63,934 nucleotides of DNA, taken from the IMG/VR virus record IMGVR_UViG_3300035156_000168, positions 1-63,934 of that record; one strand, 5' to 3'. Both the position numbers and the translations under genes were made by a program. Under the pieces are notes generated by a model. That model was not told the origin of the DNA. It searched no databases and saw nothing but the letters and a program-made list of their open reading frames with translations. The DNA is from a virus. The stretch's first letter is position 1, and every line of letters begins with the position of its first letter. Of this stretch, positions 9,446 through 58,134 are shown piece by piece.

Positions 9446-10877
9446 TTGTCCCCCGGTTTCGTCGTCGGCTGGCGACGACGCGATTCGGTTGGCGGCTTCT
9501 GCTGGTTTGTTTCTGGATGAGTGGCAGCAATTGGTGTTGCGGCGGTCGTTGGGGGAGCGTCCTGACGGTAAGTGGGTGACGCCGGACGTGGCTTTGGTTG
9601 TCAGCCGACAGAACGGCAAGAATGCGGTGCTTGAGGCCCGCGAGTTGGCTGGGTTGTTCTTGTTCGGCGAGGAACTGATCATCCATACGGCGCATGAGAT
9701 GAAGGCGGCGGCGGTGACGTTCCGGCGCATTGTGTCGCTGATTCAGGGAACCCCGTCGCTGTTGAAGCGGGTGCGGAACATCGCGTACAGCAAGGGCGAT
9801 GAGGGTGTCGAGCTGCACAACGGGAACCGCCTGCGGTTCATGGCTCGCACGGGCGGTTCCGGTCGGTCGTTTTCGGCTGACACGCTGATTCTCGACGAGG
9901 CGTACAACCTGCCTGACCACGTCATGAACGCTTTGACGCCGACGTTGGCGGCTCGTCCGAACCCGCAGGTCTGGTACACGTCGTCGGCTGTGAACCAGAT
10001 CGAGCATCCGCACGGGTTGACGTTGGCGCGGGTGCGTCGGCGGGCGTTGGCTGGCGGCGACCCGCAGTTGGCTTACAGCGAGTGGTCGGGTGACGAGTCG
10101 GCTTACGCCGCCGACCCGAAGGCATACGCGCAGGACCGTGCCGCGTGGGCGGTGGCGAACCCGGGGCTGGGGATTCGCATCCCCGAGGAGTTTTTGGAGT
10201 CGCAGCTGCGGCGCATGGGCCCGACGGGGTTCGCGACGGAGCACATGTCGATCGGCGACTGGCCGGACGAGCCGGACACCGACAAGCATTATGTGGTCGA
10301 CCCTGAACGGTGGTCGGAGTTGGTGGATCGGCTGTCGGAGCCGACTGACCCTGTGTCGTTCGGCATCGCAGCATCGCAGGACCGTTCGTCTGCCGCGATC
10401 TGTGTGGCTGGGCAGCGGTTAGACGGGTTGGTGCACGTCGAGGTCGTTGATCAGCGCAAGGGCGTGGCGTGGGTTGTGGACAGGATGGTCGAGCTTGATC
10501 GCCGGCAGCGTCCGTGTGCGGTGGTGGTTGATCCTGGCGGGCCTGCGGGTTCGCTGATTATGCCGTTGGAGCAGGCTGGTGTGGCGGTGCAGAAGGTGAC
10601 GGCCCGCGAGTACGCGCAGGCGTGCGGCAGGTTTTTTGTGGCTGCTTCGGAGCGGTCGGATGAGACGCCTGCCGGGGGTTTGCGGCATCAGGACGACATG
10701 CGTCTCAATCTGGCGTTGGAGAACGCGCACACCCGTCCGCTGTCTGAGGCGTGGGCGTGGGACTCGAAAGCGGGAACTGTCGACATCAGCCCGTTGGCTG
10801 CTGTGACGCTCGCAATGCGCGGCTTGGACACTTACCTGGCGACCTCACGCAACAACGGATGGATGGTGTCGCTGTGA
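9384..10877 (+). CDS. Terminase large subunit
   Basis: About 497 residues from ATG 9384; the open frame extends further upstream, so the start is uncertain. The ATPase motor shows an actinophage-type Walker A (VVSRQNGKNAVLEARELAG) and Walker B (DTLILDEAYNL). The nuclease half contains FGIAASQDRSSAAICV, and the C-terminal part has further acidic residues (VVVDPGG). It translocates and cuts concatemeric DNA into proheads. It overlaps the small subunit in another frame. Confidence 0.92.
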   Translation: MRLTNLLRSELRGVQQPRLSSCPPVSSSAGDDAIRLAASAGLFLDEWQQLVLRRSLGERPDGKWVTPDVALVVSRQNGKNAVLEARELAGLFLFGEELIIHTAHEMKAAAVTFRRIVSLIQGTPSLLKRVRNIAYSKGDEGVELHNGNRLRFMARTGGSGRSFSADTLILDEAYNLPDHVMNALTPTLAARPNPQVWYTSSAVNQIEHPHGLTLARVRRRALAGGDPQLAYSEWSGDESAYAADPKAYAQDRAAWAVANPGLGIRIPEEFLESQLRRMGPTGFATEHMSIGDWPDEPDTDKHYVVDPERWSELVDRLSEPTDPVSFGIAASQDRSSAAICVAGQRLDGLVHVEVVDQRKGVAWVVDRMVELDRRQRPCAVVVDPGGPAGSLIMPLEQAGVAVQKVTAREYAQACGRFFVAASERSDETPAGGLRHQDDMRLNLALENAHTRPLSEAWAWDSKAGTVDISPLAAVTLAMRGLDTYLATSRNNGWMVSL

Positions 10878-19241: not shown

Positions 19242-22200
19242 ATGCCGAAGCTTGCGGAAATGTATGTCGCCCTCCGCGCGGATGATGGGCCAGCTAATAA
19301 GGTCATCGCCGGTGTTCGGTCGTCGTTGCAGAAGTTGGACTCGACGAGGGTTCAGCCGAACATCACGATGTCGGAGAAGCCTGTCGCTGACATTGCGGCG
19401 TTGGAGAAGCGGCTCGCTGGTTTGGCGAGCACACGCGTCCGGCTGAATGTTGACTCGACGGTGGCTGCCTCTGAGGTTCGCACTTTGGGTCGGCAGTTGG
19501 AGGCGTTGCAAACGTCGCGGCATTCAATCCCGGTCGAGTTGCAGGGTCAGATCAACGGGCAGATCGCTGAGGTTGAACGGGCCCTCGCTGTTGCGACAAA
19601 GCGGCAGAACCAGATTCCGTTGCGGTTGGAGCGGATCACCGACCAGGTTGCGGCGGTGCAAACCCAGCTTGAGGGTTTGGGCGGCGTCGAGGTTGACGTG
19701 CCGGTCAAAGAGTCGGGGCTGGAACGGGTCAAGCAGCATTTGGCGGCGATGGCTCGGGACCGCTACGACGCCACCATCTATGTGAACGCGAAGAACAGCG
19801 ACGGCGGCGGCGACTTCGACCCGGGCGCGTTGTTGAAGACTCCGGCGTTGCTTGCAGCTGTGAATGTGGCGGCGTCGGCTATGGCGTCCCTCGGGGCTGG
19901 CGGCATTTCGTTGGCCGCCGCTATGGCCCCGGCTGCTGGTGCGATGGCGGCTGTTCGGGTGGGGATGGTCGCGGTTCAGCAGGGTGCTGCTGTGGCGAAC
20001 ATCGCAATGATGGGTGTCAGCGACACCATGAACGCGATGGCTGAGATGGAAGCGAAGGTCGCTTCCGGGGCGAAGATCAGCAAGCAGGAGCAGGCCGAGT
20101 ACAACGCCATGCTGAAAGCGGCGGGCCCTGCGGTCGTCACTTTTGCTGGTCAGTTGAAGACGTTGCAGGACGGCTTCGACGGGCTTCGGAAGCCAATCCA
20201 GAACGTGCTTCTGCCCGCGTTCGGGGCGGCTTTGCAGACGATCTCGACCACGTATCTGCCGTTGCTGCGGACCCAGCTTGTCGGCACTGCGACTGTGCTG
20301 GCTGGGGTGACCGCCGCGTTCACTGAGTGGCTGTCGTTCCCGAGCACCGTCGGCAAAGTGAACACAGTCCTCGGGGCCAACAACAGGATTCTGAGCCTAC
20401 TCGGCCCGGTCGCGCTCAACCTGGCCGACATTCTGCTCAACATTTGGGTTGCGGCGCTGCCCATGACGATCCGCTTCGCGGAGTGGCTGGGCATTGTCAC
20501 CACCAAGTTGGCGCAGATGGTGGAGAGTGCGGCTGGCAGCGGGGCGCTGGTTGCCTATTTCAAGCTGGCCGGCGACACCGCCGCGCAACTTGGTGCCATC
20601 TTCGGCAATCTCGCGGTCGGGTTGTTCCGCGTGTTTCAGGGCGGCGCCGCACAGGGACGCACTTTCCTCGACCTGTTCCAGACGTTAACAGCCAGGTTCG
20701 CCGCGTGGACGGGGTCGCTCGCCGGCAAAAATGCAATCGCTGATTTCTTCGCGCGTGCGCAGCCGGTGCTGAACGAGGTCGGGTTGTTGGTTCGGGACAT
20801 AGCGAAGGCGTTCGGCGAACTGTCGACTCAGACTGGGTTGGCTCCGGTGATCGCGCAGGTTCGGACCCAGTTGCTGCCGGCGCTGCTGTCGATTGTGACC
20901 GCCACGTCGAGCCAGCTGTTGCCGTCGCTGGTGGCGCTCGCGACGAAGGCAGCCGACTTCTTCAACGTCATGTCCGGTCACGGCGGATCTTTGGTGCTCA
21001 CCATCGACCTGTTGACCAAGTTCGCTAACTCGGCGCTGTGGTTGTTGAACAACATTCCTGGCGCGACGACTGCGCTGGGTGCGTTCTTCGCGGTGATGGC
21101 AGTCAAGCAGGCGTTCTCGATCATCGGTCAACTCAGCGGACTTACGTCCACCATCCCGATTCTGGTGTCGGCGTTCGGCGTTTTGCGGGGGACAGTCGTT
21201 GCGACTCAGGCGCCGTTGGCGGCGCAGGCGTTGGCGTGGGTCGCGTTGAAGGTGCAGATGCTGGCGCAGGCTGCGGCGAGTGGGATCGCGACGGCCGCAA
21301 CGACTATCTTCGCGGGTGCCGCGCGGGCTGCTGGTGTGGCGATGCGGTTCATGCTCGGCCCTGTCGGGCTCATCATCACCGGCATCGGGCTGCTGGTCGC
21401 AGGCGTCATCTACGCGTACAAAAACTTTGAGCCGTTCCGAAACATTGTGGACACGGTCGGTCGTGCGCTGCTCACCGGTTTGGTGGCTGCCGTCGATGCT
21501 GTGGTGGCAGCGTTCCGCAGGGTTGCTGTTTCCGCGACGGCGGACTGGGCTGCGGTGAAGGCGGCTGTCACGGCAGCGTGGAACGGCATCGTGTCGTTCT
21601 TCTCGACGGCGGGCGCGACGATCGTCGCCGCTGTGTCGCGGGTGTGGACGGCTGTCGCGACCGACGTGTCGAACGCATGGACTGCCATCAGGACCGCCGT
21701 GTCGAACGCCTGGAACGGGATCGTCGCGTTCTTCACCACCGGAGCGGGTGGTCAGATTGTCGCCGCCATCGGGACGATATGGACAACCGTGCGTAACGCT
21801 GTCGCGGGAGCATTCGCCGCCATCTGGGGTGCCATCAAAGTAGCGATCGGCGCTTGGGTGACGCTCATCAAGATTGAATTGGCGATCATCGGCGCTGTGT
21901 TCCTGCTTGCCTGGCAGGGCCTGTCTGCGGTGGCGCGTACGGCATTCGGCGCTGTGCAAGCAGTGATTGCGACGGTGTGGGGGGCTATCCGCTCCGCGTT
22001 CACCACTGCCCAGTCAGCTCTGTCTGCGGCGTGGTCCGCGTTCTGGAACACCATCAAATCGGTCGTTAGCGCGGCTTGGAACTTTGTGTATAGCGGGATC
22101 ATCGCGCCGGTCATCACGACAATCAGGAACGCGTTCAACGCCTTCATAGCGTACGAGGTTCAGGTGTGGACGAACTTCTGGAACAACATAAAGGCGGTCG

Positions 22201-24431
22201 CGTCGGCGGCCTGGACGTTCGTGCGTGACAACATCATCACCCCAATCTGGAACGGCATCAGAGCCGTCTTCACCGCAGCGCACACCTTCGTCCGCAACGC
22301 CTGGAACACGTTCTGGGAAGCAATCAAGACAGCGGCTCGGGTGGCCTGGACGTTCGTCAAAGACAACATCATCAACCCGATCTGGAACCAGGTAAAGGCG
22401 ATCTTCGCAGCGGCGCACACCCTATTGCGGAACGCCTGGACGGTGTTCTGGAATGCCGTGCGCACCACAGCGAGCACGATCTTCAACGCCATCCGCACCC
22501 TCGTTAACACAGTGTGGAACCAGATCAAGACATTGTGGTCGGCGGCGCAGGGTGTGGTGACAAGGGCTTGGGACACGTTCTGGGGGACTATCAAGAGGGT
22601 CGGTGCTGCGGCGATCGAGTGGGTGCGGGCTCAGATCAACGAGAAACTGAACGCGGTCAAGGGCATCGTCAGCCGTTTCGTGTCGGCGGTCGGTGGCATC
22701 TGGGGCGGCATTCAGGGCAAGTTCTCTGGGCCGTGGAACTGGGTGAAGAACAACGTTCTAGACAAGCTCGCTGCCGCTTACAACGCGGTCGCGAAAGTCG
22801 TTGGCGCGCCGACGCTCAACTTGGCCGACGGCGGCCCGGTGGGGAATGCTGGCGGTTCCCCAACTGAGGGTGCGGTTGGTCGGGCTGACGGCGGGCCGAT
22901 CGACAAGCGCGCCGCCGGTGGGCGTATCCGCGGCAGGGGCGGGCCGCGTCAGGACAACATTGCGGGGATTGACCGGGCGACGGGTGTGCAAACGTCGTGG
23001 GTGTCCGCCGGTGAGTATGTCGTCAACGCGAAGCAGTACCAGAAGAACAAGCAGGTTGTGGAGTCCATCAACTCGGGCCTCGACTTTAATGAGGCTGTCG
23101 GGCGCAGGTTAAATCGTGAGTACGTCGCGCGGGCGTTCGGTGGGGAGATTCCGCGTCTGTGGATCGGCGGCGGCACGAAACCTGCTGCGGGTTCTGTGAG
23201 TCAGCACAGCGGCTACGGGTGGGCGCGGTGGGCTGGCGACATCAACGAGCCAGGCGCTGCCGATATGGGTAAGCCGGTGAGTGCGTGGAAGTCGGGCATT
23301 GTGGCGGCGACGACAACAATGTCGGGGTCGTACGGCAAGCACATCCGCATCAACCACCCCGGCAATGAGCGCACCCTGTACGCCCACCTGTCGCAGTTCT
23401 CGGTCAGCCCGGGGGCCCGGGTGCGACAGGGCCAGAAAATCGGCGAGAAGGGCAACACGGGAAACTCGTCTGGGCCTCACTTGCACTTCGAGTTGGCGGG
23501 CGGCAGTGATTCGATTACCGGCAAGATAGGTAACGCCGTCAAGGGTGCGGTCGAGTCGGTAATAGAGATGATTAAGCCGCGGGCGATGTTCACTGCGGCG
23601 TCGAACCCGATCCTTGGCTTGGTCGAGAAGGGGTTGGGTGCGCTGCCTGGCGGCGACACCCCGTTCTCGAAGATGATGGCCCGGTTCCCGCGAAAACTGC
23701 GTGACATGTTGGCGTCCAAGCTGCCGGAGTCGTTCGGCATTGAAAGCAGCGGCGGTGGAACGGACGGCGTCAATGTGGGCGCGGGCTCGGGCGACCGGAT
23801 GAAGAACGCGTCAGTTATTGCTCAGGTCGGCAAGGGCGGCGGCAAGAGAGCGCAAACCATCGGTTTGATTACCGCGCTTGTGGAGTCCGGTCTTCGCAAC
23901 GTCAACTACGGCGACCGCGACTCTCTAGGCTTGTTTCAGCAGCGGGCGCCGTGGGGTCCGGCGTCGGCTCGGATGAATCCGCGCACGTCGGCGGGCATGT
24001 TCTACAACGGCGGCCGCGGCGGGCAGCGAGGGCTGTACGACATCTCAGGTTGGCGCAGCATGAGCATGGGCGCCGCCGCGCAGAGGGTTCAGGTGTCAGC
24101 ATTCCCGGGCCGCTACCAAACCCGGGTCAAAGAGGCTGAGTCGATTCTTAGTGCGCTCAAAATGGCGGACGGCGGGATTGTGCAGGGCGGTCGTGGTGGG
24201 ACTTTGGCGCACATCGGTGAGGGTGCCCGCGATGAGTTGGTGACTCCGTTGCCGCGCGGCTGGAAAGCGGCGGACTCGGGTGGGGATATGCGGCGGTTGA
24301 TTGCGTTGTTGGAGGAGCGCGGGTTGGGTGAGACGCATTTGACGATGAACGCGTACAACCCGGTGGCGGAGCCGACGACGGTGTCTACGAACAAGCAGTT
24401 GCAGCGCGTCGGCGCGCTGGGGATTGTCTGA
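19242..24431 (+). CDS. Tape measure protein with M23 peptidase and lysozyme-like domains
   Basis: 1729 residues. A helical N-terminal half has hydrophobic segments (about 198-245 and 390-420). A long middle is built of aromatic repeats of the AWNGIVSFF / AWTFVRDNIITPIWN type, about 30-40 residues each (about 760-1180). The C-terminal region carries two cell-wall hydrolases: an M23 metallopeptidase (about 1330-1415; HIRINHP, YAHLSQ, HLHFEL) and a lysozyme-like domain (about 1525-1640; TALVESGLRNVNYGDRDSLG, FQQR). The length sets tail length, and the enzymes would open peptidoglycan during DNA entry. Confidence 0.95.
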   Translation: MPKLAEMYVALRADDGPANKVIAGVRSSLQKLDSTRVQPNITMSEKPVADIAALEKRLAGLASTRVRLNVDSTVAASEVRTLGRQLEALQTSRHSIPVELQGQINGQIAEVERALAVATKRQNQIPLRLERITDQVAAVQTQLEGLGGVEVDVPVKESGLERVKQHLAAMARDRYDATIYVNAKNSDGGGDFDPGALLKTPALLAAVNVAASAMASLGAGGISLAAAMAPAAGAMAAVRVGMVAVQQGAAVANIAMMGVSDTMNAMAEMEAKVASGAKISKQEQAEYNAMLKAAGPAVVTFAGQLKTLQDGFDGLRKPIQNVLLPAFGAALQTISTTYLPLLRTQLVGTATVLAGVTAAFTEWLSFPSTVGKVNTVLGANNRILSLLGPVALNLADILLNIWVAALPMTIRFAEWLGIVTTKLAQMVESAAGSGALVAYFKLAGDTAAQLGAIFGNLAVGLFRVFQGGAAQGRTFLDLFQTLTARFAAWTGSLAGKNAIADFFARAQPVLNEVGLLVRDIAKAFGELSTQTGLAPVIAQVRTQLLPALLSIVTATSSQLLPSLVALATKAADFFNVMSGHGGSLVLTIDLLTKFANSALWLLNNIPGATTALGAFFAVMAVKQAFSIIGQLSGLTSTIPILVSAFGVLRGTVVATQAPLAAQALAWVALKVQMLAQAAASGIATAATTIFAGAARAAGVAMRFMLGPVGLIITGIGLLVAGVIYAYKNFEPFRNIVDTVGRALLTGLVAAVDAVVAAFRRVAVSATADWAAVKAAVTAAWNGIVSFFSTAGATIVAAVSRVWTAVATDVSNAWTAIRTAVSNAWNGIVAFFTTGAGGQIVAAIGTIWTTVRNAVAGAFAAIWGAIKVAIGAWVTLIKIELAIIGAVFLLAWQGLSAVARTAFGAVQAVIATVWGAIRSAFTTAQSALSAAWSAFWNTIKSVVSAAWNFVYSGIIAPVITTIRNAFNAFIAYEVQVWTNFWNNIKAVASAAWTFVRDNIITPIWNGIRAVFTAAHTFVRNAWNTFWEAIKTAARVAWTFVKDNIINPIWNQVKAIFAAAHTLLRNAWTVFWNAVRTTASTIFNAIRTLVNTVWNQIKTLWSAAQGVVTRAWDTFWGTIKRVGAAAIEWVRAQINEKLNAVKGIVSRFVSAVGGIWGGIQGKFSGPWNWVKNNVLDKLAAAYNAVAKVVGAPTLNLADGGPVGNAGGSPTEGAVGRADGGPIDKRAAGGRIRGRGGPRQDNIAGIDRATGVQTSWVSAGEYVVNAKQYQKNKQVVESINSGLDFNEAVGRRLNREYVARAFGGEIPRLWIGGGTKPAAGSVSQHSGYGWARWAGDINEPGAADMGKPVSAWKSGIVAATTTMSGSYGKHIRINHPGNERTLYAHLSQFSVSPGARVRQGQKIGEKGNTGNSSGPHLHFELAGGSDSITGKIGNAVKGAVESVIEMIKPRAMFTAASNPILGLVEKGLGALPGGDTPFSKMMARFPRKLRDMLASKLPESFGIESSGGGTDGVNVGAGSGDRMKNASVIAQVGKGGGKRAQTIGLITALVESGLRNVNYGDRDSLGLFQQRAPWGPASARMNPRTSAGMFYNGGRGGQRGLYDISGWRSMSMGAAAQRVQVSAFPGRYQTRVKEAESILSALKMADGGIVQGGRGGTLAHIGEGARDELVTPLPRGWKAADSGGDMRRLIALLEERGLGETHLTMNAYNPVAEPTTVSTNKQLQRVGALGIV

Positions 24432-40987: not shown

Positions 40988-42625
40988 ATGGCGAAAGACG
41001 TACCCGACGTTGCGAGTTGGAACCCGTACTGGGAGAACAGCGTCGCCAACATCAAAAAAGGAATGCAAGCACTCATCGACGTCGGCTCCGACGTGATCGG
41101 CATGCAGGAAATGTCCCACGACCCAACCTGGGACGCGATAGCGGCATGGACGCCAACAATCGGCTGGTGGACGACCCCGAAGTCGAACGCCATCCCCATC
41201 CACGTCAACACCAAAACGTACGAGATCGTCGACTGGAAGTCGGTGCTGTACGACGACAGCGACCGCACCGTCGAACCGGGTGCGGGCGGCAACACGACCC
41301 CGACGAAAAGCATCATGCGGGTGTCGGTCCGTCACCGCGAGCAGGGCACCGTGTCGCACCACTTCAACATGCACCTGATCGCCACGATTGAGAGCGGCGG
41401 GCAGGTTGGTGGGAACCCGTTGCGGCTGGCGTTCGCGCAAGGCCACCTCGACCTGTTCAAACAGTTGGCGGCGCCGTACCTCGCAACAGGTGAGCCGGTG
41501 ACGGTCTCCGCCGACTGGAATGTGTCGTCGTCGACTTCCGCAGGGAAGTGGCTCCGCGACCAAATGACCCCGCTCGGGTTCGTGTCGGCGCAGCACAAGC
41601 TGGGCCCGTTCAACACGCACGGCGTCCGCGAAATCGACGACGTGTTCTACGCCAACTGTGAGGCGACGAAGTTCCGCCGGCTCGACGAGTTCGGCTCCGA
41701 CCACAGCCCAATCGAGGTGGACCTGGGCCCAAAAGCAGAAGAGGAACCCGAATTGGCTACCTGTCAGAACGGCTACCCGGTCGCGTTCAGCCGCGAACAG
41801 ATTAAGCCCAGCCCCGCCACCGTCACCATCGCGGGTCTGCGGAAGTTCACCGTCCGCTCCGACCACGCCCCCGCGTGGCAGATCCTCGGCGACCATTTGC
41901 ACGAGTACGTGGAGGCCGTCAACGAGGGCTACAAGGACATAGACGACTGGTCGTACACCGTCCGTCCGGTGCGCGGTCAAACGTCCGGCTACAGCAACCA
42001 CTCCGGCGCTTGCGCGTGGGACTGGAACGCCACCCAGCACCCGCTCGCCACATCCCCAGCCGCCAACTTCACGACACGGCAGATCACCCGCATCCGTGAG
42101 CTGATGTCGAAGTTCGTCGGCAACGGTCAGCGCATCTTCCGTTGGGGCGGCGACTACTCGGGCCGCAAGGACGGCATGCACTTGGAGGTGGTGGCGTCGT
42201 CGGCGGACGTGGCCGCGTTCGTCCGCGACTTCAACGCCGGCAAAATCCGCCTGTCGTTCGTCGCACCACCACCAGAGCCGGTCGTCGTTAAGCCCGCCGC
42301 GGTCAAACCGAAGGTGTCGCTGAAAGCGGTACAGGCTGGGTTGCGGTCAGGGTCCGAACTCGTCGAAGGTCCCACCGGCAACGACGGCGCCGAGTATCAG
42401 CGGGCGTTGAACAAGTTCACCGGGTTCGAGTTGGTCACCGACGGCGTGCTCGGCCGCAACAGCCGCGTCGTCACCGCACAAGCGCAACTCAAGGTGGCAC
42501 GCGGAAACGGCGCGAACCTGACAACCGCTGACTGCTGGCCGAACTCCGGCTACAACACGGACCTCGACGGCATCGTCGGTGCGGAAACGTTCAAAGCGCT
42601 CGGCCTGGACAACACCGACATCTAA
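40988..42625 (+). CDS. Endolysin: EEP (DNase I-like) domain fused to M15 peptidase and C-terminal binding domain
   Basis: 545 residues, GGAGAAG ribosome site. Residues about 5-250 follow the endonuclease/exonuclease/phosphatase fold: VASWN, VIGMQEM, SADWNVSS, FGSDHSPIEVDL (Asn, catalytic Glu, DxN, SDH). Residues about 260-420 are an M15/VanY-like D-Ala or L-Ala-D-Glu peptidase (SGYSNHSGACAWDWN, GRKDGMHLEV: zinc His/Asp/His). About 435-545 is a peptidoglycan-binding-like end (TDGVLGRNSRVVTAQAQLKV). A nuclease-endolysin fusion is unusual: it could degrade host DNA or free viscous DNA at lysis. Confidence 0.8.
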   Translation: MAKDVPDVASWNPYWENSVANIKKGMQALIDVGSDVIGMQEMSHDPTWDAIAAWTPTIGWWTTPKSNAIPIHVNTKTYEIVDWKSVLYDDSDRTVEPGAGGNTTPTKSIMRVSVRHREQGTVSHHFNMHLIATIESGGQVGGNPLRLAFAQGHLDLFKQLAAPYLATGEPVTVSADWNVSSSTSAGKWLRDQMTPLGFVSAQHKLGPFNTHGVREIDDVFYANCEATKFRRLDEFGSDHSPIEVDLGPKAEEEPELATCQNGYPVAFSREQIKPSPATVTIAGLRKFTVRSDHAPAWQILGDHLHEYVEAVNEGYKDIDDWSYTVRPVRGQTSGYSNHSGACAWDWNATQHPLATSPAANFTTRQITRIRELMSKFVGNGQRIFRWGGDYSGRKDGMHLEVVASSADVAAFVRDFNAGKIRLSFVAPPPEPVVVKPAAVKPKVSLKAVQAGLRSGSELVEGPTGNDGAEYQRALNKFTGFELVTDGVLGRNSRVVTAQAQLKVARGNGANLTTADCWPNSGYNTDLDGIVGAETFKALGLDNTDI

Positions 42626-42826: not shown

Positions 42827-43285
42827 ATGCCCATTGTGAACGCATCTGTGCTGAAAGCCGACGCCAGCAACCGCGCCCTACGCACCTTCCTGCAAGGGCT
42901 CGCCTACGTTGTGCTGTTCGCTGTCGGGCTCGTCCTGTACAACGCGTTCAGCACCGCAACCCGCTGGTCCGACTTCGACTGGTCCGCGCTGCTGTTCTCA
43001 GCGCTGCAGGCCGCGGTCATGGCCGGGTTTGCGTACCTCATGAGGTCTCGCCTTGACGCGTCGTCGGTGCCGACACCGCTGCCGCCCGAATACCCCGGCG
43101 AACCCAACGAAGAACCGCAGATCATCAACGTAGACGCGGATAAGTTAAGGGAAGGCACTTTGGGGGCCACCAACGTAAAGGAAGGGACGTTGGGCGGCGC
43201 GCAGATCATCTCGAACCGCACCGGCAAGGTCTACGACGACCACCCCGACCGAGGCATGCGAGACGACGGGACGCCGATCGTCTGA
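42827..43285 (+). CDS. Holin-like two-span membrane protein
   Basis: 152 residues from ATG 42827 (GAAAGG site). Two membrane segments (LAYVVLFAVGLVLYNAF and WSALLFSALQAAVMAGFAYLM, about 24-68) with a long charged C-terminal tail containing repeated REGTLGATNVKEGTLGGAQI-type units. Placement right after the endolysin fits a class II holin, although the tail is longer than usual. The 200 bp before it hold no gene I can support. Confidence 0.75.
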   Translation: MPIVNASVLKADASNRALRTFLQGLAYVVLFAVGLVLYNAFSTATRWSDFDWSALLFSALQAAVMAGFAYLMRSRLDASSVPTPLPPEYPGEPNEEPQIINVDADKLREGTLGATNVKEGTLGGAQIISNRTGKVYDDHPDRGMRDDGTPIV

Positions 43286-43299
43286 CTGCGACATCCGAT

Positions 43300-43677
43300 T
43301 CAGGTGCCTACCAGTTGGTGAGCGCGTTGATGTGACACCCCGAGCAGAGCCCCGATGTCCCGCAAGGGAACATCCGCAGAGGCGAGCCCCTTCGCCAACT
43401 CGGCAGCTTCATGAGCAGCCTCGGCCTCGAGCTGAGCGGCGGCTTCCTTGTCGTGGCGGATGAGCGCCACCTTTTCCCCGACCGAGATCCCTCCCACGTC
43501 CCCGTAGCTGAGGGACACGTCCACGTCGCTAAGTTTCACGTCGAGAGTGACCGCGATGTACTCGCGGGCCATGAGTTCGATCTCGGACACGCGTCGAGCT
43601 TGAGTGACCCCGTCTAGTTCGGGGATGTGGATCATCCACCAGCGGCCTTCTCTGGTCACTGTTACGTCGTACCTCAT
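43300..43677 (-). CDS. hicB: HicB-like antitoxin
   Basis: 125 residues from ATG 43677. The N-terminal partial RNase H-like HicB domain (YDVTVTREGRWWMIHIPELDG, then ARRVSEIELMAREYIAVTL) is followed by helices and a C-terminal HTH (LRDIGALLGVSHQRAHQLVG) for operator binding. It overlaps the toxin gene by four bases. It should neutralise HicA and repress the operon. Confidence 0.85.
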   Translation of the reverse strand: MRYDVTVTREGRWWMIHIPELDGVTQARRVSEIELMAREYIAVTLDVKLSDVDVSLSYGDVGGISVGEKVALIRHDKEAAAQLEAEAAHEAAELAKGLASADVPLRDIGALLGVSHQRAHQLVGT

Positions 43678-43874
43678 TTGCCCCCCTGGGCGCTCTTGAT
43701 TGCAGCCATGATTTGACGGACTACCCCTGGCGAGATGGTGCGGTGGCCGTCGGGCACCGACACACTGACTGACCCTGCCTGCCAAACGGTGTGGCTTCCC
43801 ACGGTCCGCACCGGCAGGAAGCCTGCGTCCCGGAGTTGCTTCACCATTTTGCGGGTGGGCTGCTCGCTAACCAT
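43674..43874 (-). CDS. hicA: HicA-like mRNA interferase toxin
   Basis: 66 residues. MVKQLRDAGFLPVRTVGSHTVWQ ends in the GSH motif with the catalytic His; VPDGHRTISPGVVRQIMAAI completes the HicA double-stranded-RNA-binding fold. It precedes the antitoxin in the operon, the usual HicAB order. Phage-borne HicAB may stabilise the prophage or block other phages. Confidence 0.85.
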   Translation of the reverse strand: MVSEQPTRKMVKQLRDAGFLPVRTVGSHTVWQAGSVSVSVPDGHRTISPGVVRQIMAAIKSAQGGK

Positions 43875-44601: not shown

Positions 44602-44628
44602 ATGAACATTTTCGGAGTGGCGACGTGA
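44602..44628 (+). CDS. Possible 8-codon leader peptide
   Basis: ATG 44602 with AGAGAGG just upstream encodes MNIFGVAT and stops at 44626-44628, overlapping the GTG start of the next gene (GTGA). It would couple translation of the membrane protein. It could equally be chance. Confidence 0.35.
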   Translation: MNIFGVAT

Positions 44629-44867
44629 GAGGCATGTTGCACAGCCTGTTCGCTGGGCCGTTCAAAACGGCGGTGCTTATCGGCGCAGTGTTGATGCTCG
44701 TCGTCGGCATCGGCCAAGCCGCGACAGCCATGTATGTCGGCGGTCGCGCTATCGGCGGCGGTGTCGGTGTCACCGTTTACGACTTCATCCCTGGCATGGC
44801 TGACGGCTTCAACCAGGCGAAGGCTGACGCGGTGAAGATCCGCCAGCAGTACCAGGCGCAGAGCTAG
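44625..44867 (+). CDS. Small membrane protein heading the transfer-like cassette
   Basis: 80 residues from GTG 44625. One strong membrane span (TAVLIGAVLMLVVGIGQAAT, about 14-33) and a Gly-rich then charged helical tail (FNQAKADAVKIRQQYQAQ). It is directly coupled to the ATPase gene (TAGTG overlap). A membrane anchor or pore component is a reasonable guess. Confidence 0.65.
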   Translation: MRGMLHSLFAGPFKTAVLIGAVLMLVVGIGQAATAMYVGGRAIGGGVGVTVYDFIPGMADGFNQAKADAVKIRQQYQAQS

Positions 44868-46720
44868 TGGCGAAGATGGCGGCGAAGCGGCGGCGTAAGG
44901 CGTCGTCATCTGTTGAGCAGTGGGTTGTTTCGCATGTGCTGACGAAGTGGTGGTTTTGGCTGTGGGCGGCGTTCACGTACGTCACTTACAGGTTCTTCGG
45001 TGACATGTGGTCGGTGTTGAAGGTGGAGGCGGCGATTGTCGGCGTCTCCACCTGTGTGTTTGTGTCGCTGTGGCGCCGGGAGCGTCTGCGGCTACTGGCG
45101 GCGAAGGGTTTGCCGAACCCTGGCTTGTTGGGGGTGGTGAAGGACGCCGGGAAGGTGGCCGTCGCCATCCCCAGAACCCGTGAGGGTTGGGTTAACGCGT
45201 GGGCGTCGCTGCCGGCGTTGAAGGGCCGCAAGATGCCGCCGTTGCGGAACATGACGATGACAGCGGACGGTGATTTGGAGACGTTGGTTCATGCGTCGAA
45301 GTACGGGGTGACGGTTGAGCTGATCCAGGCGAACGCCGCCGACATCGCGCAAATCTGCAACTCGCCTCGGCTGGTGGTGCGCAGGACGTCTATCGGCTGG
45401 GCGAAGCTCACGTTCCGGTTCACGGAGCCGTTGGAGCGGGTGCTGCCCATCGCCGAGCTGCCGCTGCCGAAGACGCGCGGGAACATCGTCATTGGCGTGA
45501 CCGAAGACGGCGACCCGATGGAACTGCCCGGCGATCAGTGCATCCTCGACGGCGGCGTTCAAGGGTCCGGGAAGTCGAACGACCTGTGGTGCTTGTTGGC
45601 GTCTCTGAACATGCAGGGCATCCCGACGCGGGCGCGGTTCATCGACTTGAAGGACGGCATGGAACTCAGCCGCCTGGGTGCGAACCCGCTCGGCGAATGG
45701 GTGGGGTTGGGGAACCTTTGCGTCGCCGGGTACACCACCGACGCCGACGAGGGTTTGCAGATCGTTCAGGACGCCCTCGACGACATGCGGGAGCGCGCGA
45801 AGCGGTTGGGTGAGGACAAGGTGCGGAAGTTCCGCGAGTACACCCAAGACGACCCGTTCTTGCTGTTGGTGATCGACGAGGCGCTCGACTACAACGACGA
45901 GTTCAAGAAGGGCACTTCCCGTCCTTTGGGCCAGTTCAACCGGAAGGTGCGGGCGGTGGGCGGGCTGACGATGGCGACGGTGCAGTACGCGCACGCGCAG
46001 GACATGGGTGTTGGTAGGAAGCCGTTCGGCACCCGCATCTGCCACCGGGCGGAGAAGGAAACCGGCGACACCATCCTTGGGGCGGGTGCTGCGTCTCGCG
46101 GTGCGGAGGTCGACAAAATCCCACAGTCGATGCCTGGCGTCGGGTTCTACGTGGACCCGGACAGGGGCGAGCAGACCCCGTTCCGGTCGGCGTATGTGAC
46201 GGACGCAGACGCGGACCGCATCGCCTCCGGTCTGCTGCCGGAGGGCATCGAGTTCGGGACGCCCGCCGAGGAAATCGCACCCGAGTGCGCGGTCTATTGG
46301 CTGCGGTCGTCGGACGGTGAGTCGCTGTACATCGGGAAGGCGCTCGACCCAGCCGCCCGTTGGGACCAGCACAAGTCGCCCAGCAGCAGCGACTACAAGC
46401 CGTGGATCGACGAAGTCGACTGGACGCAGACGAAGGTGTTCTGGAAGGACAACGAGGCGGCGGCGCTCAAGTACGAGAAGCATCTGACGGAGAAGTTCGG
46501 GTCGAAGTACAACGACCTGAACAACCGGAAGACGCCGTGGCGTGTTGACTGGCGGGCTGAGCACAAGGCGAAGAAAGCCGCGGAGGCTGCGGATGCTGTG
46601 CCGGAGCCGTCGAACGAGGAGTTGGCTGGGCGTCGCCCGTTGCAGCTGGTCGTGAACGACGACGTGGACGATGACGGTCTGATGCCTACCGGTACTGATT
46701 CGTACTACGGCAGCGAGTGA
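44867..46720 (+). CDS. FtsK/TraB-type DNA translocase fused to a GIY-YIG domain
   Basis: 617 residues from GTG 44867. Two N-terminal membrane spans (about 27-70). The FtsK/SpoIIIE-HerA motor has Walker A GGVQGSGKS (about 229-236), the FtsK-type FIDLKDGMELSRL, Walker B LLLVIDEALD (about 331-339), and the arginine-finger-like FGTRICHRAE with ILGAGAASRGAE. Residues about 474-555 form a GIY-YIG nuclease-like domain (VYWLRSSDGESLYIGKALDP, ARWDQHK). Such motors pump double-stranded DNA in Streptomyces-type conjugation. The nuclease fusion is unusual. Confidence 0.85.
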   Translation: MAKMAAKRRRKASSSVEQWVVSHVLTKWWFWLWAAFTYVTYRFFGDMWSVLKVEAAIVGVSTCVFVSLWRRERLRLLAAKGLPNPGLLGVVKDAGKVAVAIPRTREGWVNAWASLPALKGRKMPPLRNMTMTADGDLETLVHASKYGVTVELIQANAADIAQICNSPRLVVRRTSIGWAKLTFRFTEPLERVLPIAELPLPKTRGNIVIGVTEDGDPMELPGDQCILDGGVQGSGKSNDLWCLLASLNMQGIPTRARFIDLKDGMELSRLGANPLGEWVGLGNLCVAGYTTDADEGLQIVQDALDDMRERAKRLGEDKVRKFREYTQDDPFLLLVIDEALDYNDEFKKGTSRPLGQFNRKVRAVGGLTMATVQYAHAQDMGVGRKPFGTRICHRAEKETGDTILGAGAASRGAEVDKIPQSMPGVGFYVDPDRGEQTPFRSAYVTDADADRIASGLLPEGIEFGTPAEEIAPECAVYWLRSSDGESLYIGKALDPAARWDQHKSPSSSDYKPWIDEVDWTQTKVFWKDNEAAALKYEKHLTEKFGSKYNDLNNRKTPWRVDWRAEHKAKKAAEAADAVPEPSNEELAGRRPLQLVVNDDVDDDGLMPTGTDSYYGSE

Positions 46721-48699
46721 TGGACGAAGACGAGGTCGGTCACAGTCTGACCGCCGGTCACGTTGTGATGGCTGGCGTCCTGGCGTTGTTCCTTGCCGGA
46801 GGGCACGCATATCAGGCGTCGGACGACCCGCCGGAGGTGGCGTGCGCCAACACTGTCGTCACGCCGTCAGCGGCGGGTGTCGAGATCGCGGCGAGCATCG
46901 GTCGAGGGATCAACGCGTTGGCTCACGGTCGTCCGTCGGAGGAGACGGTGCGCGACTACACCCTCGGCGCGTGGGGCCAGGTTGGGCTGTGGGTCGGTTC
47001 GGGGATCGCTGCGGCTCGCGGTCAGGAGTTGCCGAAGTCGGCGCTGATTGAGCAGCGGAAAGCGGTCGCGCAGGCGGTCGCTTTGCAGGATGCGTGCACC
47101 CCGAAGGCGGTGTGTGAGGCGCCGTTGCCGACCGCGGCGGCGGCGATTAGCACGTCTCGGCTGAGTCTCACTGGCGCTCCGCAGGCAGCGGACGCAGCAC
47201 GCAAGGCAGGGTTCACTGGTGAGGATCTTGTGGTGGCTGTTGCTGTCGCCGCCGCCGAGTCGGGCTATCGCAATGTGCGGTCGAAGCCGAACAGCAACGG
47301 CTCCTACGACCACGGCTTTTGGCAGATCAACAGTGTCCATCGCGGACTGTTGGCGGGCGGCGACTGGCGCGACCCGTACGACAACGCGCAGATGGCGTAC
47401 CAGGTGTGGGAGGACGCCGGGTGGCGGGCGTGGACGACCTACAAGAACGGCTCCCACCGACGCCACATGGATGCGGCCCGCGCGGCCGGCCAGGGCGCAC
47501 AGCAGACCCCGGCGGTGCCCGATCAGCCGACCTGCGAAGCGGGGAACCTGCAGGGCGTGATTTCGTCGGTGGCTGAGTTGAACCCGTCCGGCGCCGGCAA
47601 CTGGCAGGGCATGGTCCACGAGGGCCGCTGGTGGTATGTGGCGCACGCCACCGCTGGCGACCGGGCGCAGATCATCCACCGACTCGACGCCGACGGCAAA
47701 GAGGTCGACCAGATGACACTGGCAGGGTTCGAGCACGCCACCAGCTTCGGGGTGCGGCGCGGGGTCGTCTACGCCACCGACGGCCAACGTCAGGTCGTGA
47801 CCGTCAAGTACCAACCAGGCGAGACGGTGCGGTCAGGTCAGCCGACCGGATGGGCAGGGCAGGTGTCGTTCGACCCCGACGGGTCCCGGGCAGTGCTCCG
47901 CAACGGCAACCGATACAAGGTTATGGACCTCGCGACAGGTAAGCCGGTTGGCCGGCAGATTGTCACCCCGACCGGGCCGAGGCAAGGGTTCTCGGTAAAG
48001 GGCGACACCGTCTATGTGCTGTCGGGGTCGACGAACGAGAAGGCGCGGATCGACGCCTACTCGGTGCAAACCGGGTTGCAGAGCGGCACCCGTGATGTGA
48101 CAGGGGTCGGCTACAAGCAAGGCGAAACAGGTCGGTTCCGCGAGCCGGAGGGCATGTTCGGCAACCTGGTCGGCGTCAAGGTGCACACCGGCGACAAGCG
48201 GCGGCTGCGGGTGTTCCGCATCGACGCAGCTCGCACTGGCACACCTGCGGCGTTGACGTCGACGCAGATCGGTGGTGTGCGAACCGTGCAGTCGAAGGGC
48301 CGCACCTGGCAGATCCCGATCCCGAAAGGCCCGCGCGGCGTGGCTATCAACTTCGTGCTCGACCAGATCGAGCAAGGCGACCAGTACATCTACGGCAGCA
48401 AAGGCCCGGACACGTGGGACTGCTCGTCGCTGATCGCCGCCGGCTACCGCAAAGCTGGCATCAGCGTGTACCCACAGTCGGGGGTGATGAACCGCACCCT
48501 CAAACACGTGCCGCTGTCAGAGGCGCAACCGGGCGACATCTTCTGGCACCCCGGTCACGTCCAGCTGAACTTGGGCCGGATCAACGGCAAGAGAGTTGTC
48601 CTGGAAGCGGCAAACCCGCGCGACGACCTGCGCATCGACGACTCCGGCTGGGCCAAAATTGACGCAGTGCTTCGACCCACAGACGGAATCCCGACATGA
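46717..48699 (+). CDS. Membrane-anchored lysozyme-like / beta-propeller / NlpC-P60 cell-wall hydrolase
   Basis: 660 residues from GTG 46717 or ATG 46720. N-terminal span (about 14-32); a helical region; a lysozyme/transglycosylase-like domain (about 155-255; AVAAAESGYRNV, YDHGFWQINSVH); a beta-propeller-like middle (about 275-500; repeated strand units like those of tail-associated propellers); and an NlpC/P60 peptidase (about 540-655; DTWDCSSLIAAGYR with Cys, PGHVQLNLG with His). The muramidase + NlpC/P60 order recalls CwlT of Gram-positive conjugative elements, which opens the wall for DNA transfer. A second tail-independent lysin is the alternative. Confidence 0.8.
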   Translation: MMDEDEVGHSLTAGHVVMAGVLALFLAGGHAYQASDDPPEVACANTVVTPSAAGVEIAASIGRGINALAHGRPSEETVRDYTLGAWGQVGLWVGSGIAAARGQELPKSALIEQRKAVAQAVALQDACTPKAVCEAPLPTAAAAISTSRLSLTGAPQAADAARKAGFTGEDLVVAVAVAAAESGYRNVRSKPNSNGSYDHGFWQINSVHRGLLAGGDWRDPYDNAQMAYQVWEDAGWRAWTTYKNGSHRRHMDAARAAGQGAQQTPAVPDQPTCEAGNLQGVISSVAELNPSGAGNWQGMVHEGRWWYVAHATAGDRAQIIHRLDADGKEVDQMTLAGFEHATSFGVRRGVVYATDGQRQVVTVKYQPGETVRSGQPTGWAGQVSFDPDGSRAVLRNGNRYKVMDLATGKPVGRQIVTPTGPRQGFSVKGDTVYVLSGSTNEKARIDAYSVQTGLQSGTRDVTGVGYKQGETGRFREPEGMFGNLVGVKVHTGDKRRLRVFRIDAARTGTPAALTSTQIGGVRTVQSKGRTWQIPIPKGPRGVAINFVLDQIEQGDQYIYGSKGPDTWDCSSLIAAGYRKAGISVYPQSGVMNRTLKHVPLSEAQPGDIFWHPGHVQLNLGRINGKRVVLEAANPRDDLRIDDSGWAKIDAVLRPTDGIPT

Positions 48700-48721
48700 A
48701 CCGGCGAGAGGGCAACTGACA

Positions 48722-49213
48722 ATGTTGATCGACTACTTCGGCTTCAACGAGGTGATGAAGTCGCTGGCCGTGTTCGGGCTCATTCTGTCCGGGTTCCTAA
48801 CCGTCATCGTGCTCATTTTCGTCCGGCCGCCGCTCACCACGCAGACGAACGCCAGAACAGGCGAAACGCGGCACGGCATCTTCCGCTGGTTCGCGGTGTT
48901 CACCGCCATCTTCTCAGGCGTACCCCTGCTCATGATCGTCGTCCGGGCTGCGGCGACACCAATCGCATGGCTGGCGGCGCACTGGGTGTGGCTGGGGTTC
49001 GCCGCCATCGCCGCTGCGGCCGCGTGGGGTGCTTTAACGTGGTGGATCAACCGCCCCCGCATCGTCAAGGATGAACCTGTGCAAGTGCTGCCGCCACCAA
49101 CCAACCACAACCCGGGACCGTCGCTGCCACAGCCGCCACGCCCGCACGCGGCGCCGTCGCAGTACTACTACGGGCAATGGTCACAGTCCCCCGACACCAC
49201 CCCGCGCGGGTGA
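48722..49213 (+). CDS. Multi-span membrane protein of the cassette
   Basis: 163 residues from ATG 48722. Three hydrophobic segments (LAVFGLILSGFLTVIVLIFV, WFAVFTAIFSGVPLLMIVV, WVWLGFAAIAAAAAWGALTW) and a cytosolic Pro-rich tail with YYYGQW. It follows the hydrolase closely and is GTGA-coupled to the next gene. It resembles the small membrane components of minimal conjugation systems only in topology. Confidence 0.65.
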   Translation: MLIDYFGFNEVMKSLAVFGLILSGFLTVIVLIFVRPPLTTQTNARTGETRHGIFRWFAVFTAIFSGVPLLMIVVRAAATPIAWLAAHWVWLGFAAIAAAAAWGALTWWINRPRIVKDEPVQVLPPPTNHNPGPSLPQPPRPHAAPSQYYYGQWSQSPDTTPRG

Positions 49214-49452: not shown

Positions 49453-49847
49453 CACTCACCGAGTTCCTGCTGGCGCGGATCGCGGAGGATAAGGCCAGTG
49501 CGTCAACGCACGCTTACTCTACAGTCGTCGGTGATGTTGCGCTCGGGGACGGTCGGCGCGCCCCTTTAAACAGTTGGGTGAGATTTAACCCCGCTCGCGT
49601 GCTAGCGGAGTGCGAAGCCAAGCGGCGGATTGTGACCGAGGTGCACTACGACCGCAACGCCGAGAGTGTGGCCGAGGCGAAGGCTGACCACGAGCGACAC
49701 GGGTGGCCCGTCTTGGTGGAGTCGGAGTGCGCCTCTTGCAGTTGCTACTCGGACTGCGTCGTCTCAATTGAGGACTGCCCCACACTGCGGCTACTCGCAC
49801 TGCCGTACGTCGACCACCCATCATTCCAGGATGAATGGCGGGCTTAG
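49449..49847 (+). CDS. DUF6221-like actinobacterial protein
   Basis: 132 residues. MTLTEFLLARIAEDKA, FNPARVLAECEAKRRIV and CPTLRLLALPYVDHPSFQDE match a family (DUF6221, from memory) widespread in Streptomyces and actinophages. The middle holds CASCSCYSDC, a metal-type cluster. Function unknown. Confidence 0.75.
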   Translation: MTLTEFLLARIAEDKASASTHAYSTVVGDVALGDGRRAPLNSWVRFNPARVLAECEAKRRIVTEVHYDRNAESVAEAKADHERHGWPVLVESECASCSCYSDCVVSIEDCPTLRLLALPYVDHPSFQDEWRA

Positions 49848-49875
49848 TCGGATGACACGCTGTAGGATAGGTGAC

Positions 49876-50391
49876 GTGACGGTTTGGCTTCCTATACCTG
49901 GGTACGAGCGCACTTACGAAGTGTCCGATATGGGCGAGGTTCGGAGCAGGCCGCGGCCGAGAACCCGAGGCGGAACCCTTAAGACATGGATCGGACGCCG
50001 CGGCTACCCGGTTGTATCGCTCGTGCAAAATGGCCGACAAGCAACTCGCGTGGTTCATGGACTTGTGGCCTTAACGTTCCTCGGGCCAAGACCCGAGAGC
50101 CAGGAAGTGCGTCACCTGAACGGTGACCCCACGGACGCGCGCGCCTCAAATCTCGCTTACGGCACCCGAGGCGAGAATGTTCGAGACAAACGTCACCACG
50201 GCAGTGACCACAACGTGAACAAGACTCACTGCCCACAAGGGCATCCTTATGACGAATCCAATACCTACGTTCTGCCTTCGCGGCCGGGCGCTCGTTACTG
50301 CCGCGAGTGCGCCAGGGTGAGAGCTCTTGCTCGTTACCACGCAAAGCGCACCCCCGACTTTGACGAGGCGTGGCGTCCCGATGCCGGTTGA
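49876..50391 (+). CDS. NUMOD4/HNH homing-type endonuclease
   Basis: 171 residues from GTG 49876 (AGGATAGG upstream); ATG 49852 is in frame. WLPIPGYERTYEVSDMGEVR is the NUMOD4 DNA-binding motif, VVHGLVALTFLG and VRHLNGDPTDARASNLAYGT the HNH core, and THCPQGHPYDESNT ... RYCREC a C-terminal zinc ribbon matching those of the other two homing-type HNH proteins in this genome. Confidence 0.88.
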   Translation: MTVWLPIPGYERTYEVSDMGEVRSRPRPRTRGGTLKTWIGRRGYPVVSLVQNGRQATRVVHGLVALTFLGPRPESQEVRHLNGDPTDARASNLAYGTRGENVRDKRHHGSDHNVNKTHCPQGHPYDESNTYVLPSRPGARYCRECARVRALARYHAKRTPDFDEAWRPDAG

Positions 50392-53074: not shown

Positions 53075-54151
53075 CTAGCGTTCGTACCCGCCCATCCGCT
53101 TAGCCACGTCGTCAACACCCTGCTCCCACGCGTGGCCGTACAAGTCGACCGTCATGGTGGCGCTGGCGTGCCCGAGCATCCGTTGCACCACTTTGACGTC
53201 GGCACCGGATGCGATGGCGAGGCTGGCGGCGGTGTGGCGTAGGTCGTGTGGCCGCAGCCCGTCCAGCCCGACTTGTGCGGTGGCGTCCTGGAAGCGTTTG
53301 TAGAAGCGGCTGTGACGTCTCAGCCCACCCCGAGCGGCCGGCAGCAGTGGCTCATCCGGCCCGCGCCCGCCGGCCAAGTTGATAAGTTCAATTAGCAACG
53401 CGGGTGGTACACCAACTTCGCGCGCCTTCCCCGTCTTCGTGTCCCCGACAGTGAGCACTCCCCCGCGTTCCCCCACCGACCTCGACACCGTCAACCTGGC
53501 CCGGGCCGCATCCAAGTCGCGGACCCGCAACCCCGCCAACTCACCCCAACGCAACCCGGTGAACGCCAACGTCCTCACCGCGATCCCGTCCGGGCCGCAC
53601 GCCTCCGCCAACTCATGAATCTGCTGCTGCGTCAACGGCCTCCCCTGCCTACGGGCCGGCATCTTCACCGACACCCCCGCAGTCGGATCAGCAATCACCA
53701 AACCGTCGCGGACAGCCAAAGCGAACACACCGGACAGAATTTGTAGAGCCTGACGAGCCACAGAAGGGGACGTGCGCGCAGCCTTCTCCGCAACCCACCC
53801 AGCAACCTCCGAATGCCGCACATCTGACAGCTGCCGGTCCTCCCACTCCGGCGCCACATGAATCCGCCACTTCGACTCATAGTTCCCGACATGCCCCGCC
53901 GACAGCCCCCGCTTCGTGCGTATCCACGCCGCGTACTGCTTCCCGACCGTCGCCTGCGACGCCAACTGCTGCGGTGTGACCCGCAGCTCCGCCAAATGCC
54001 GCTCCGCCTCATCCTTAGTGGTGAAGTTCCGCTTCCGCTGGTTCTCGTCGGAGTCCCGCCACCGCGCCTGCCAACGCTGCCCGCGACCGTTCAACGCCGT
54101 CGGCACCTTACGGCCACCGACCTTACGGAACCACAAATCGTAGACAGCCAT
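53075..54151 (-). CDS. int: Tyrosine integrase
   Basis: 358 residues. N-terminal arm-binding and SAM-like core-binding domains (about 1-165), then the catalytic domain with all key residues: GLRWGE (Arg), DTKTGKAR (Lys), HDLRHT (His-x-x-Arg), GHAS (His), and VDLYGH (Tyr nucleophile). It would recombine attP with the host tRNA-Arg attB. It begins a minus-strand lysogeny block with the lipoprotein and repressor. Confidence 0.96.
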   Translation of the reverse strand: MAVYDLWFRKVGGRKVPTALNGRGQRWQARWRDSDENQRKRNFTTKDEAERHLAELRVTPQQLASQATVGKQYAAWIRTKRGLSAGHVGNYESKWRIHVAPEWEDRQLSDVRHSEVAGWVAEKAARTSPSVARQALQILSGVFALAVRDGLVIADPTAGVSVKMPARRQGRPLTQQQIHELAEACGPDGIAVRTLAFTGLRWGELAGLRVRDLDAARARLTVSRSVGERGGVLTVGDTKTGKAREVGVPPALLIELINLAGGRGPDEPLLPAARGGLRRHSRFYKRFQDATAQVGLDGLRPHDLRHTAASLAIASGADVKVVQRMLGHASATMTVDLYGHAWEQGVDDVAKRMGGYER

Positions 54152-57236: not shown

Positions 57237-57238
57237 GC

Positions 57239-57714
57239 ACGGCAGGCGAGGCAAGGCAAGGCGGGTTGAGGCTTGGTGGGGCACGGCTTGGCATGGCAGG
57301 TCTGGCACGGCTAGGCGTGGCAAGTTCTGGCGAGGTCAGGCGCGGCAAGGCAGGCATGGCGAGGTTGGGTAAGGCTAGGCGCGGCCGGGCATGGCACGGT
57401 ACGGCTCGGCTCGGCAGGCACGGTTTGGTTTGGTGCGGTCGGGTCAGGCGCGGCTTGTCTGGGCTAGGCACGGCTGGGCAGGTTGGGCACGGCGTGGCAC
57501 GTCACGGTTCGGCCAGGCTTGGCGAGGCGCGGCAGGCAGGGCTACGTCTGGCAGGGTGCGGCGAGGTCGGGCACGGTTGGGCAGGCTTGGCTTGGCACGG
57601 CGCGGTTTGGTCGGGCGGGGTTTGGCAGGGCATGGCCCGGCAGGCGAGGCGTGGTGAATCGCGGTTGGGCATGGCGACGCGCGGCCAGGCTTGGCGAGGC
57701 GCGGCAGGTCTGGC
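57239..57714 (+). repeat. GGCNN pentamer-repeat array, about 475 bp
   Basis: Almost the entire interval is written as GG(C/T)NN pentamers. The phase slips by one base wherever GGCAG is followed by a 4-mer (GNNN) instead of a 5-mer: at 57241, 57295, 57349, 57413, 57477, 57531, 57580, 57639 and 57703. The resulting units are 54, 54, 64, 64, 54, 49, 59 and 64 bp, all 5n+4. Open frames run through in several frames on both strands purely because stops are excluded. It lies between two conserved unknown genes and may be an origin, structured RNA or recombination element. Confidence 0.9.
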
Positions 57715-58134
57715 ATGAACCTCCGCGACGCATTGCAGTCCGTCTACGACCAGCGTGGGCTTCTCACGCCTGCGTTGGTCGTAGATGAGGCCCGACCCGA
57801 TGACCACCCCCTGCATAACCGGTTCGAGTGGGACGACTCCATCGCTGGCGAGGCGTACCGCCACCAGCAAGCCCACCGGCTGATTACGTCGGTGCGGGTC
57901 AACATCGGCCACGACAAGCACGGCCCCAAGGACGTCCGGGCATTCGTAGCTGTGCCGACGTCGCTGCCGCAACCGAACTACATGCCGATCGCCGACGCGT
58001 TCGCCGACGACATGACCCAGCGCATCGTGCTCGCCGAGTTCGAGCGTGCGCTCAAGCAACTGCACCGACGCTACGGACACCTCAAGGAGTACGCGCAGAT
58101 GTTGAGAACGCATTTGACAGAGGACGCGGCATGA
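57715..58134 (+). CDS. Conserved phage protein, probable partner of the 56622 protein
   Basis: 139 residues, starting directly at the last repeat. LTPALVVDEARPDDHPLHNR, FEWDDSIAGEAYRHQQAHRL and LHRRYGHLKEYAQML are a recognisable set of conserved motifs that I recall in other phages in the same neighbourhood as the 56622-type protein. The segment RLITSVRVNI is strand-like. No function is known to me; context suggests a role with the repeats. Confidence 0.7.
   Translation: MNLRDALQSVYDQRGLLTPALVVDEARPDDHPLHNRFEWDDSIAGEAYRHQQAHRLITSVRVNIGHDKHGPKDVRAFVAVPTSLPQPNYMPIADAFADDMTQRIVLAEFERALKQLHRRYGHLKEYAQMLRTHLTEDAA

Follow-up and report, generated by a model that had tools for sequence, protein, structure and literature searches.

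The window, by which we mean the whole stretch of DNA analysed here, is a 63,934-base IMG/VR virus sequence from a temperate tailed phage of actinobacteria. Downstream of its endolysin gene, its putative holin gene and a HicBA pair, it carries a cassette of four co-directional genes. The features of this cassette and of its surroundings that are used below are as follows.

19242-24431: M23-like stretch inside the tape measure
40988-42625: separate M15 endolysin
42827-43285: putative holin
43300-43874, minus strand: toxin-antitoxin pair of HicA and a HicB-like protein, located between the lysis genes and the cassette
44602-44628, plus strand: 8-codon leader ORF, read from the sequence (MNIFGVAT followed by a stop; ATG preceded by GAGAGG)
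44634-44867, plus strand: P0001, single-span membrane peptide of 77 amino acids (alternative start GTG at 44625)
44867-46720, plus strand: P0002, membrane-anchored FtsK/Tra-type dsDNA motor of 617 amino acids with a GIY-YIG domain
45194-46261, plus strand: motor region of P0002 (amino acids 110-465; Walker A GVQGSGKS at 230, DLKDGMEL at 260, Walker B VIDE at 335)
46289-46513, plus strand: GIY-YIG nuclease domain of P0002 (amino acids 475-549; Pfam PF01541, 1.4e-10)
46720-48699, plus strand: P0003, membrane-anchored wall hydrolase of 659 amino acids (N-terminal span, amino acids 11-29)
47191-47439, plus strand: SLT_3 lysozyme-like domain of P0003 (Pfam, 4.9e-15; catalytic Glu in AAAES)
47977-48156, plus strand: part of the propeller-like middle domain of P0003 (Phage_RBD_prop, PF21311, 3.1e-7)
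48376-48576, plus strand: NlpC/P60 endopeptidase domain of P0003 (Pfam, 3.2e-8; Cys in WDCSS, His in GHVQL)
48722-49213, plus strand: P0004, membrane protein of 163 amino acids with three hydrophobic segments and a Pro-rich tail
53075-54151: tyrosine integrase, which is also normal in temperate phages

Genes one and two overlap by 1 nucleotide, as do genes two and three, and a short gap precedes gene four. The 1-base overlaps are a sign of translational coupling, and an earlier sequence-only reading of four coupled genes, with a small membrane protein first (P0001 has one hydrophobic segment) and a multi-span membrane protein last (P0004), is borne out. That reading began the first gene at 44602, which proved incorrect: the ATG there opens the 8-codon leader, and the real start lies at 44625 or 44634. 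The leader has a ribosome site of its own, and its TGA stop (44626-44628) overlaps the GTG at 44625; the leader frame differs from that of the membrane peptide, and translational coupling of the leader to the first gene is possible. A consensus promoter scan gave no match on the plus strand, and terminator-like sites did not exceed their frequency in shuffled sequences. The operon is not a product of chance, because the Walker, GIY-YIG, lysozyme Glu and NlpC Cys/His motifs are intact in long coupled frames, and because the gene order is conserved in a second phage (L009, described below) at 32% motor identity.

The remainder of the record is that of a phage. Its terminase (9384-10877) is nearest to those of Rhodococcus phages (41%), its major capsid protein gene has 72% DNA identity to Gordonia phages, and portal and repressor genes are also present. 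Judged by these terminase and capsid matches, the host is probably a mycolic-acid actinobacterium. The separate endolysin named by the sequence-only reading is present as the M15 protein, and an M23-like stretch lies in the tape measure. Elsewhere in the window, a NUMOD4-HNH endonuclease gene (49837-50391) lies directly 3' of the cassette, and an ORF at 7243-7725 encodes MUG113, a member of the GIY-YIG clan. DNA methyltransferase copies at the two contig ends (62418-63932 and 8-1471) share near-identical sequence, with the right-end copy apparently split by an intein-like insert (CVDTDTEMLTSRGWLRW...) that the left copy lacks. The assembly probably stopped at this repeat.

In Pfam, FtsK_SpoIIIE is found in P0002 with an E value of 1.7e-3, below the Pfam cut-off. 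The clan of the motor is settled by the profile matches, since P0002 matches phrog_1358 at 2.7e-13 and the family profile matches FtsK (3e-21) and TcpA (2e-18) in the PDB. The sequence-only reading gave the motor two N-terminal spans; the AF2 model does contain two long N-terminal helices, but only one span is strongly hydrophobic. The motor region of the same model is confident, with pLDDT values mostly near 90, and a Foldseek search with it places TcpA of pCW3 first (1.6e-17), followed by FtsK (1.7e-16), with HerA (1.8e-7) and the STIV packaging ATPase B204 (8e-6) far lower. By this fold ranking, P0002 is not of the viral packaging-ATPase type, and the phage has its own terminase.

The nearest plasmid sequences to P0002 are 14 Tra-like motors of actinobacterial plasmids and AICEs (E values to 6e-15), which adjoin replication initiators and often integrases. 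In an alignment of P0002 with its relatives, the Walker A motif, the D-K-E strand, the Walker B motif and the arginine positions are invariant. In a tree of 56 sequences, P0002 and the motors of two other phages, L009 and L010, share a clade (SH-aLRT 96). The plasmid/AICE Tra clade lies next to it, and chromosomal FtsK and EccC fall outside both; the exact placement of the P0002 clade is uncertain because the branches are long. On its sequence and modelled fold, P0002 is a motor of the FtsK/SpoIIIE-HerA clan that belongs to the Tra branch and is neither a packaging nor a chromosomal motor, in agreement with the TraB/TcpA-type assignment made from the sequence alone.

An FtsK fold with a dsDNA motor might also serve to segregate a plasmid-like prophage or clear it from the septum, as FtsK and SpoIIIE do with chromosomes. 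We consider this use highly improbable, given that a tyrosine integrase is present and that the hydrolase would be left unexplained. Furthermore, no ParA over its cut-off was found in the record, nor were RepSA and Prim-Pol (the RepSA positive control worked; the record is possibly incomplete). By those tests, the element is therefore neither an AICE nor a partitioned plasmid.

The C-terminal GIY-YIG domain that the sequence-only reading attached to the motor is present. Alignments identify the residues Y477, Y488, G490, R498, H502, E537 or E530, and N549; the corresponding part of the AF2 model is of low confidence and was left uninterpreted. The motors of L009 and L010 also end in a GIY-YIG domain, and that of a further phage, L020, carries the clan member MUG113. 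The L020 fusion may be independent, because L020 falls elsewhere in the motor tree. As a separate observation, the FtsK-GIY-YIG gene of L010 directly follows a gene with a weak DUF2637/HTH match (L010:3936-7212), and the DUF2637/HTH family also occurs near the pMR2 motor. Profile searches of 399 and 395 actinobacterial genomes (some shared; about 790 sampled) gave hundreds of motor relatives, a few candidates per genome were scored, and no motor-GIY-YIG fusion was seen among the listed matches. Likewise, none of 50,697 phage records held a motor relative with a GIY-YIG domain.

In TraB, a clt-reading domain occupies the C-terminal place where P0002 has its GIY-YIG domain, and no clt-reading winged helix was detected at the C-terminus of P0002. 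TraB binds clt (PMC12857230). The exchange of a clt-reading domain for a nuclease domain therefore suggests, by analogy, a different way of selecting or processing DNA. No cluster of clt-type direct repeats was found beside the motor. A pentameric GGYNN repeat array of ~480 bp stands 9 kb off (57237-57715 of the window; 73 GGYNNGGY in 479 bp). Within the window, runs of four fall almost entirely inside this array, which is missing from L009 and could be an origin or recognition array.

A nuclease on a membrane-anchored motor invites the alternative that the cassette acts in superinfection exclusion or defence. The motor-nuclease would then grip and cut DNA as it enters across the envelope, and the site of entry would be remodelled by the hydrolase and the membrane proteins. 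Consistent with this alternative are the intact GIY-YIG motifs, a weak PADLOC match to mad8 (5.6e-6), the categorisation of phrog_1358 as moron/host takeover, and the setting of the cassette in a temperate phage with integrase and repressor and with a HicBA pair next door. However, two intact wall-cleaving domains, and another set of them in L009, are hard to account for in this way, and the nearest motors are Tra proteins rather than defence motors. We therefore regard exclusion as unlikely.

P0003 has the lysozyme-like, propeller and NlpC/P60 domains, behind a membrane anchor, that were proposed from the sequence alone. Because its AF2 model has a mean pLDDT of 30, the propeller is assigned from the Pfam match. 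The best PDB match of P0003 is to CwlT-type hydrolases of Tn916-like elements (1.9e-7), as the sequence-only reading anticipated, although the NlpC matches to CwlT are modest and are shared with other NlpC proteins. With its membrane-anchored lysozyme and NlpC/P60 domains, P0003 is of CwlT-type make-up.

The best phage matches to P0003 come from Rhodococcus phages P19 and Toil; they are putative entry lysozymes and cover its lysozyme part only. Together with the resemblance of its middle domain to a phage receptor-binding propeller, and with the location of the cassette after the lysis genes in both phages, these matches would suit an accessory of virion entry, lysis or host takeover. P0003 would then serve in entry as a lysozyme, or as a second lysin, and the motor would aid phage DNA entry or process host DNA. 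This role appears distinctly unlikely to us, as the cassette lies outside the tail gene block, P0003 has an N-terminal membrane anchor, the motor is not of the packaging type, and the L009 cassette is on the strand opposite to the lysis genes.

A motor-alignment scan of 2.9 million viral contigs yielded 13 relatives, and L022 and L023 came from a further profile scan. L009 is a 38-kb phage contig with terminase, portal-type and tape-measure genes that carries all four gene types in the same order as in the window. Its motor (720 amino acids) is 32% identical to P0002, and its anchored hydrolase (812 amino acids) is encoded by a gene that overlaps the motor gene by 4 bases. This hydrolase combines M23, SLT_3 and EEP-like domains, such that M23 and EEP-like domains replace the propeller and NlpC domains of P0003, and the lysozyme domains of the two proteins are 48% identical. 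The counterparts of the outer genes are recognised by place and topology only.

L009:7260-7511: counterpart of P0001, one-span peptide of 83 amino acids (28% identity, not significant alone)
L009:12161-12391: counterpart of P0004, two-span protein of 76 amino acids

An EEP (DNase I-like) domain also occurs in the window, at the N-terminus of the M15 endolysin (40988-41767; motifs QE, NMH, DWN and SDH). It shares homology with the EEP-like regions that L009 has in its cassette hydrolase (E 2e-24) and in its endolysin, had no match in 50,697 phage records, and may cut phosphodiester bonds in the host envelope or in DNA.

The recurring linkage of ATPase and hydrolase that had been proposed thus appears in L009, and the four-gene set is a real unit because it recurs in this one distantly related phage; the full set is known in two phages only. 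A control scan of 56 genes that lie downstream of other motor relatives revealed no wall hydrolase; 25 encode RepSA, three encode integrases and one encodes a telomere resolvase. Eight further viral records that contain a related motor, those of the FtsK-GIY-YIG phages L010 and L020 among them, lack SLT_3. No additional family members came from direct pattern scans that used P0002, P0003 or the P0002/L009 pair.

Several candidate cassettes were rejected. The NlpC genes that lie 4-5 kb from the L011 and L012 motors encode unlinked secreted NlpC proteins. Other matches of the lysozyme-domain scan, besides L009, are SLT domains in other contexts, and the two SLT loci examined, L086 and L091, are tape-measure-type genes. 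Separately, a Nocardia suismassiliense contig (L053:7212-10055) carries a Tra-like motor gene directly before a ResT/TelK telomere resolvase gene, which suggests a linear element with hairpin ends that has a transfer motor.

The clear kinship of P0002 to AICE Tra proteins raises the further possibility that the cassette is a transfer module captured from an AICE or plasmid and now inert or in decay. All frames are intact, however, the set has been retained in two deeply divergent phages, and neither the hydrolase linkage nor the GIY-YIG fusion is seen in any AICE relative examined. Inert carriage of this kind is very improbable as an explanation of the present cassette.

We favour the interpretation, with a probability of roughly 0.42, that the cassette is a minimal envelope-spanning dsDNA transfer machine of the actinomycete Tra kind, whose likeliest use would be to deliver excised phage DNA to a neighbouring cell. 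By analogy with known systems, the motor would form a hexameric pore at the membrane and move dsDNA, and the GIY-YIG domain, standing where TraB has its clt-reading domain, would recognise, nick or linearise the DNA to be moved. The anchored hydrolase would open peptidoglycan locally, in the manner of CwlT and PrgK, and the two small membrane proteins would play a Spd-like or scaffold role. Excised phage DNA or neighbouring host DNA would thus reach an adjacent cell without a virion. What counts against transfer is that the intact motor nuclease and the EEP nuclease-like domain of the L009 hydrolase would suit the destruction of DNA as well as its transfer. The confinement of the full set to two phages, the lack of clt-type repeats beside the motor, the purely positional conservation of P0001 and P0004, the modest NlpC matches to CwlT and the missing SLT_3 hydrolase in the L010 and L020 records also weigh against it. 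The stronger claim, that a tailed temperate phage has a complete minimal conjugation machine of new design, whose Tra-type pump is equipped with a nuclease and a multi-enzyme wall drill of its own, and hence a second, capsid-free route from cell to cell, is one that we consider doubtful.

Phages and conjugative elements are usually seen as separate gene-moving routes, and the operon is a concrete candidate for a virus that uses both. The motor-nuclease fusion also bears on how actinobacterial dsDNA conjugation selects and processes DNA. Were the function exclusion instead, the cassette would represent a new envelope-based defence architecture.

Among known systems, the Tra proteins of AICEs and actinomycete plasmids (pSAM2, pMR2, pS2b and pGRS1) are the nearest sequences to P0002. 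They are likewise single FtsK/SpoIIIE-type motors with an N-terminal span, and they have the DLKDGMEL/DPKGGMEL signature in common with it. However, they end shortly after the motor, whereas P0002 adds a GIY-YIG domain, and unlike the AICEs, the phage cassette has a coupled wall hydrolase and a tailed-phage carrier. The Streptomyces TraB systems with Spd (pIJ101 and pSVH1) share with the cassette one motor and small membrane proteins in one transcription unit, and TraB is a lone motor that works together with Spd membrane proteins (PMC12857230). The TraB of pIJ101 is far more distant from P0002 than is the L009 motor (65 bits versus 207 with the same profile, which includes P0002), and it has no co-encoded hydrolase, whereas the phage motor does. 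With a C-terminus that is GIY-YIG rather than a clt-reading domain, P0002 is not a classical Streptomyces TraB in the strict sense.

TcpA of pCW3, from Clostridium perfringens conjugation, is the best PDB fold match to P0002. TcpA operates with a full Tcp transfer apparatus, of which the phage cassette shows only a hydrolase-like part. No relaxase and no VirB4, VirB6 or VirB8-like part was seen among the proteins scanned, which are part of the gene set, and on that scan the cassette is probably not a Gram-positive T4SS in the strict sense.

CwlT of Tn916-type elements and PrgK of pCF10 are wall hydrolases that serve conjugation; they are membrane-anchored and bi- or tri-functional. CwlT has lysozyme and NlpC/P60 domains, like P0003, and PrgK has M23 and SLT domains, like the L009 hydrolase. 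PrgK comprises LytM, SLT and CHAP domains, of which SLT is the active muramidase (PMC11323569). The phage hydrolases differ from both in having an SLT domain of the SLT_3 type and a propeller-like or EEP-like domain, and in being partnered by a TraB-type motor rather than a T4SS.

FtsK-type translocases, some of them Tra-related, are also found in other phages (Omegavirus, Streptomyces phage Gilgamesh and Bacillus phage Andromeda; phrog_1358 and phrog_3551), and the neighbourhoods of those of Omegavirus, Gilgamesh and Andromeda lacked a wall hydrolase in all three cases read. The Streptomyces plasmid-phage pZL12, a phage-like element with tra and a plasmid-type replicon, offers a precedent for phage elements with Tra; it is likened to the cassette by its description alone, according to which its conjugal transfer requires a major tra gene together with genes next to it (cited in PMC3583192). 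What is new in the cassette is the fusion of motor and nuclease and the pairing of motor and hydrolase, within a known kind of machinery.
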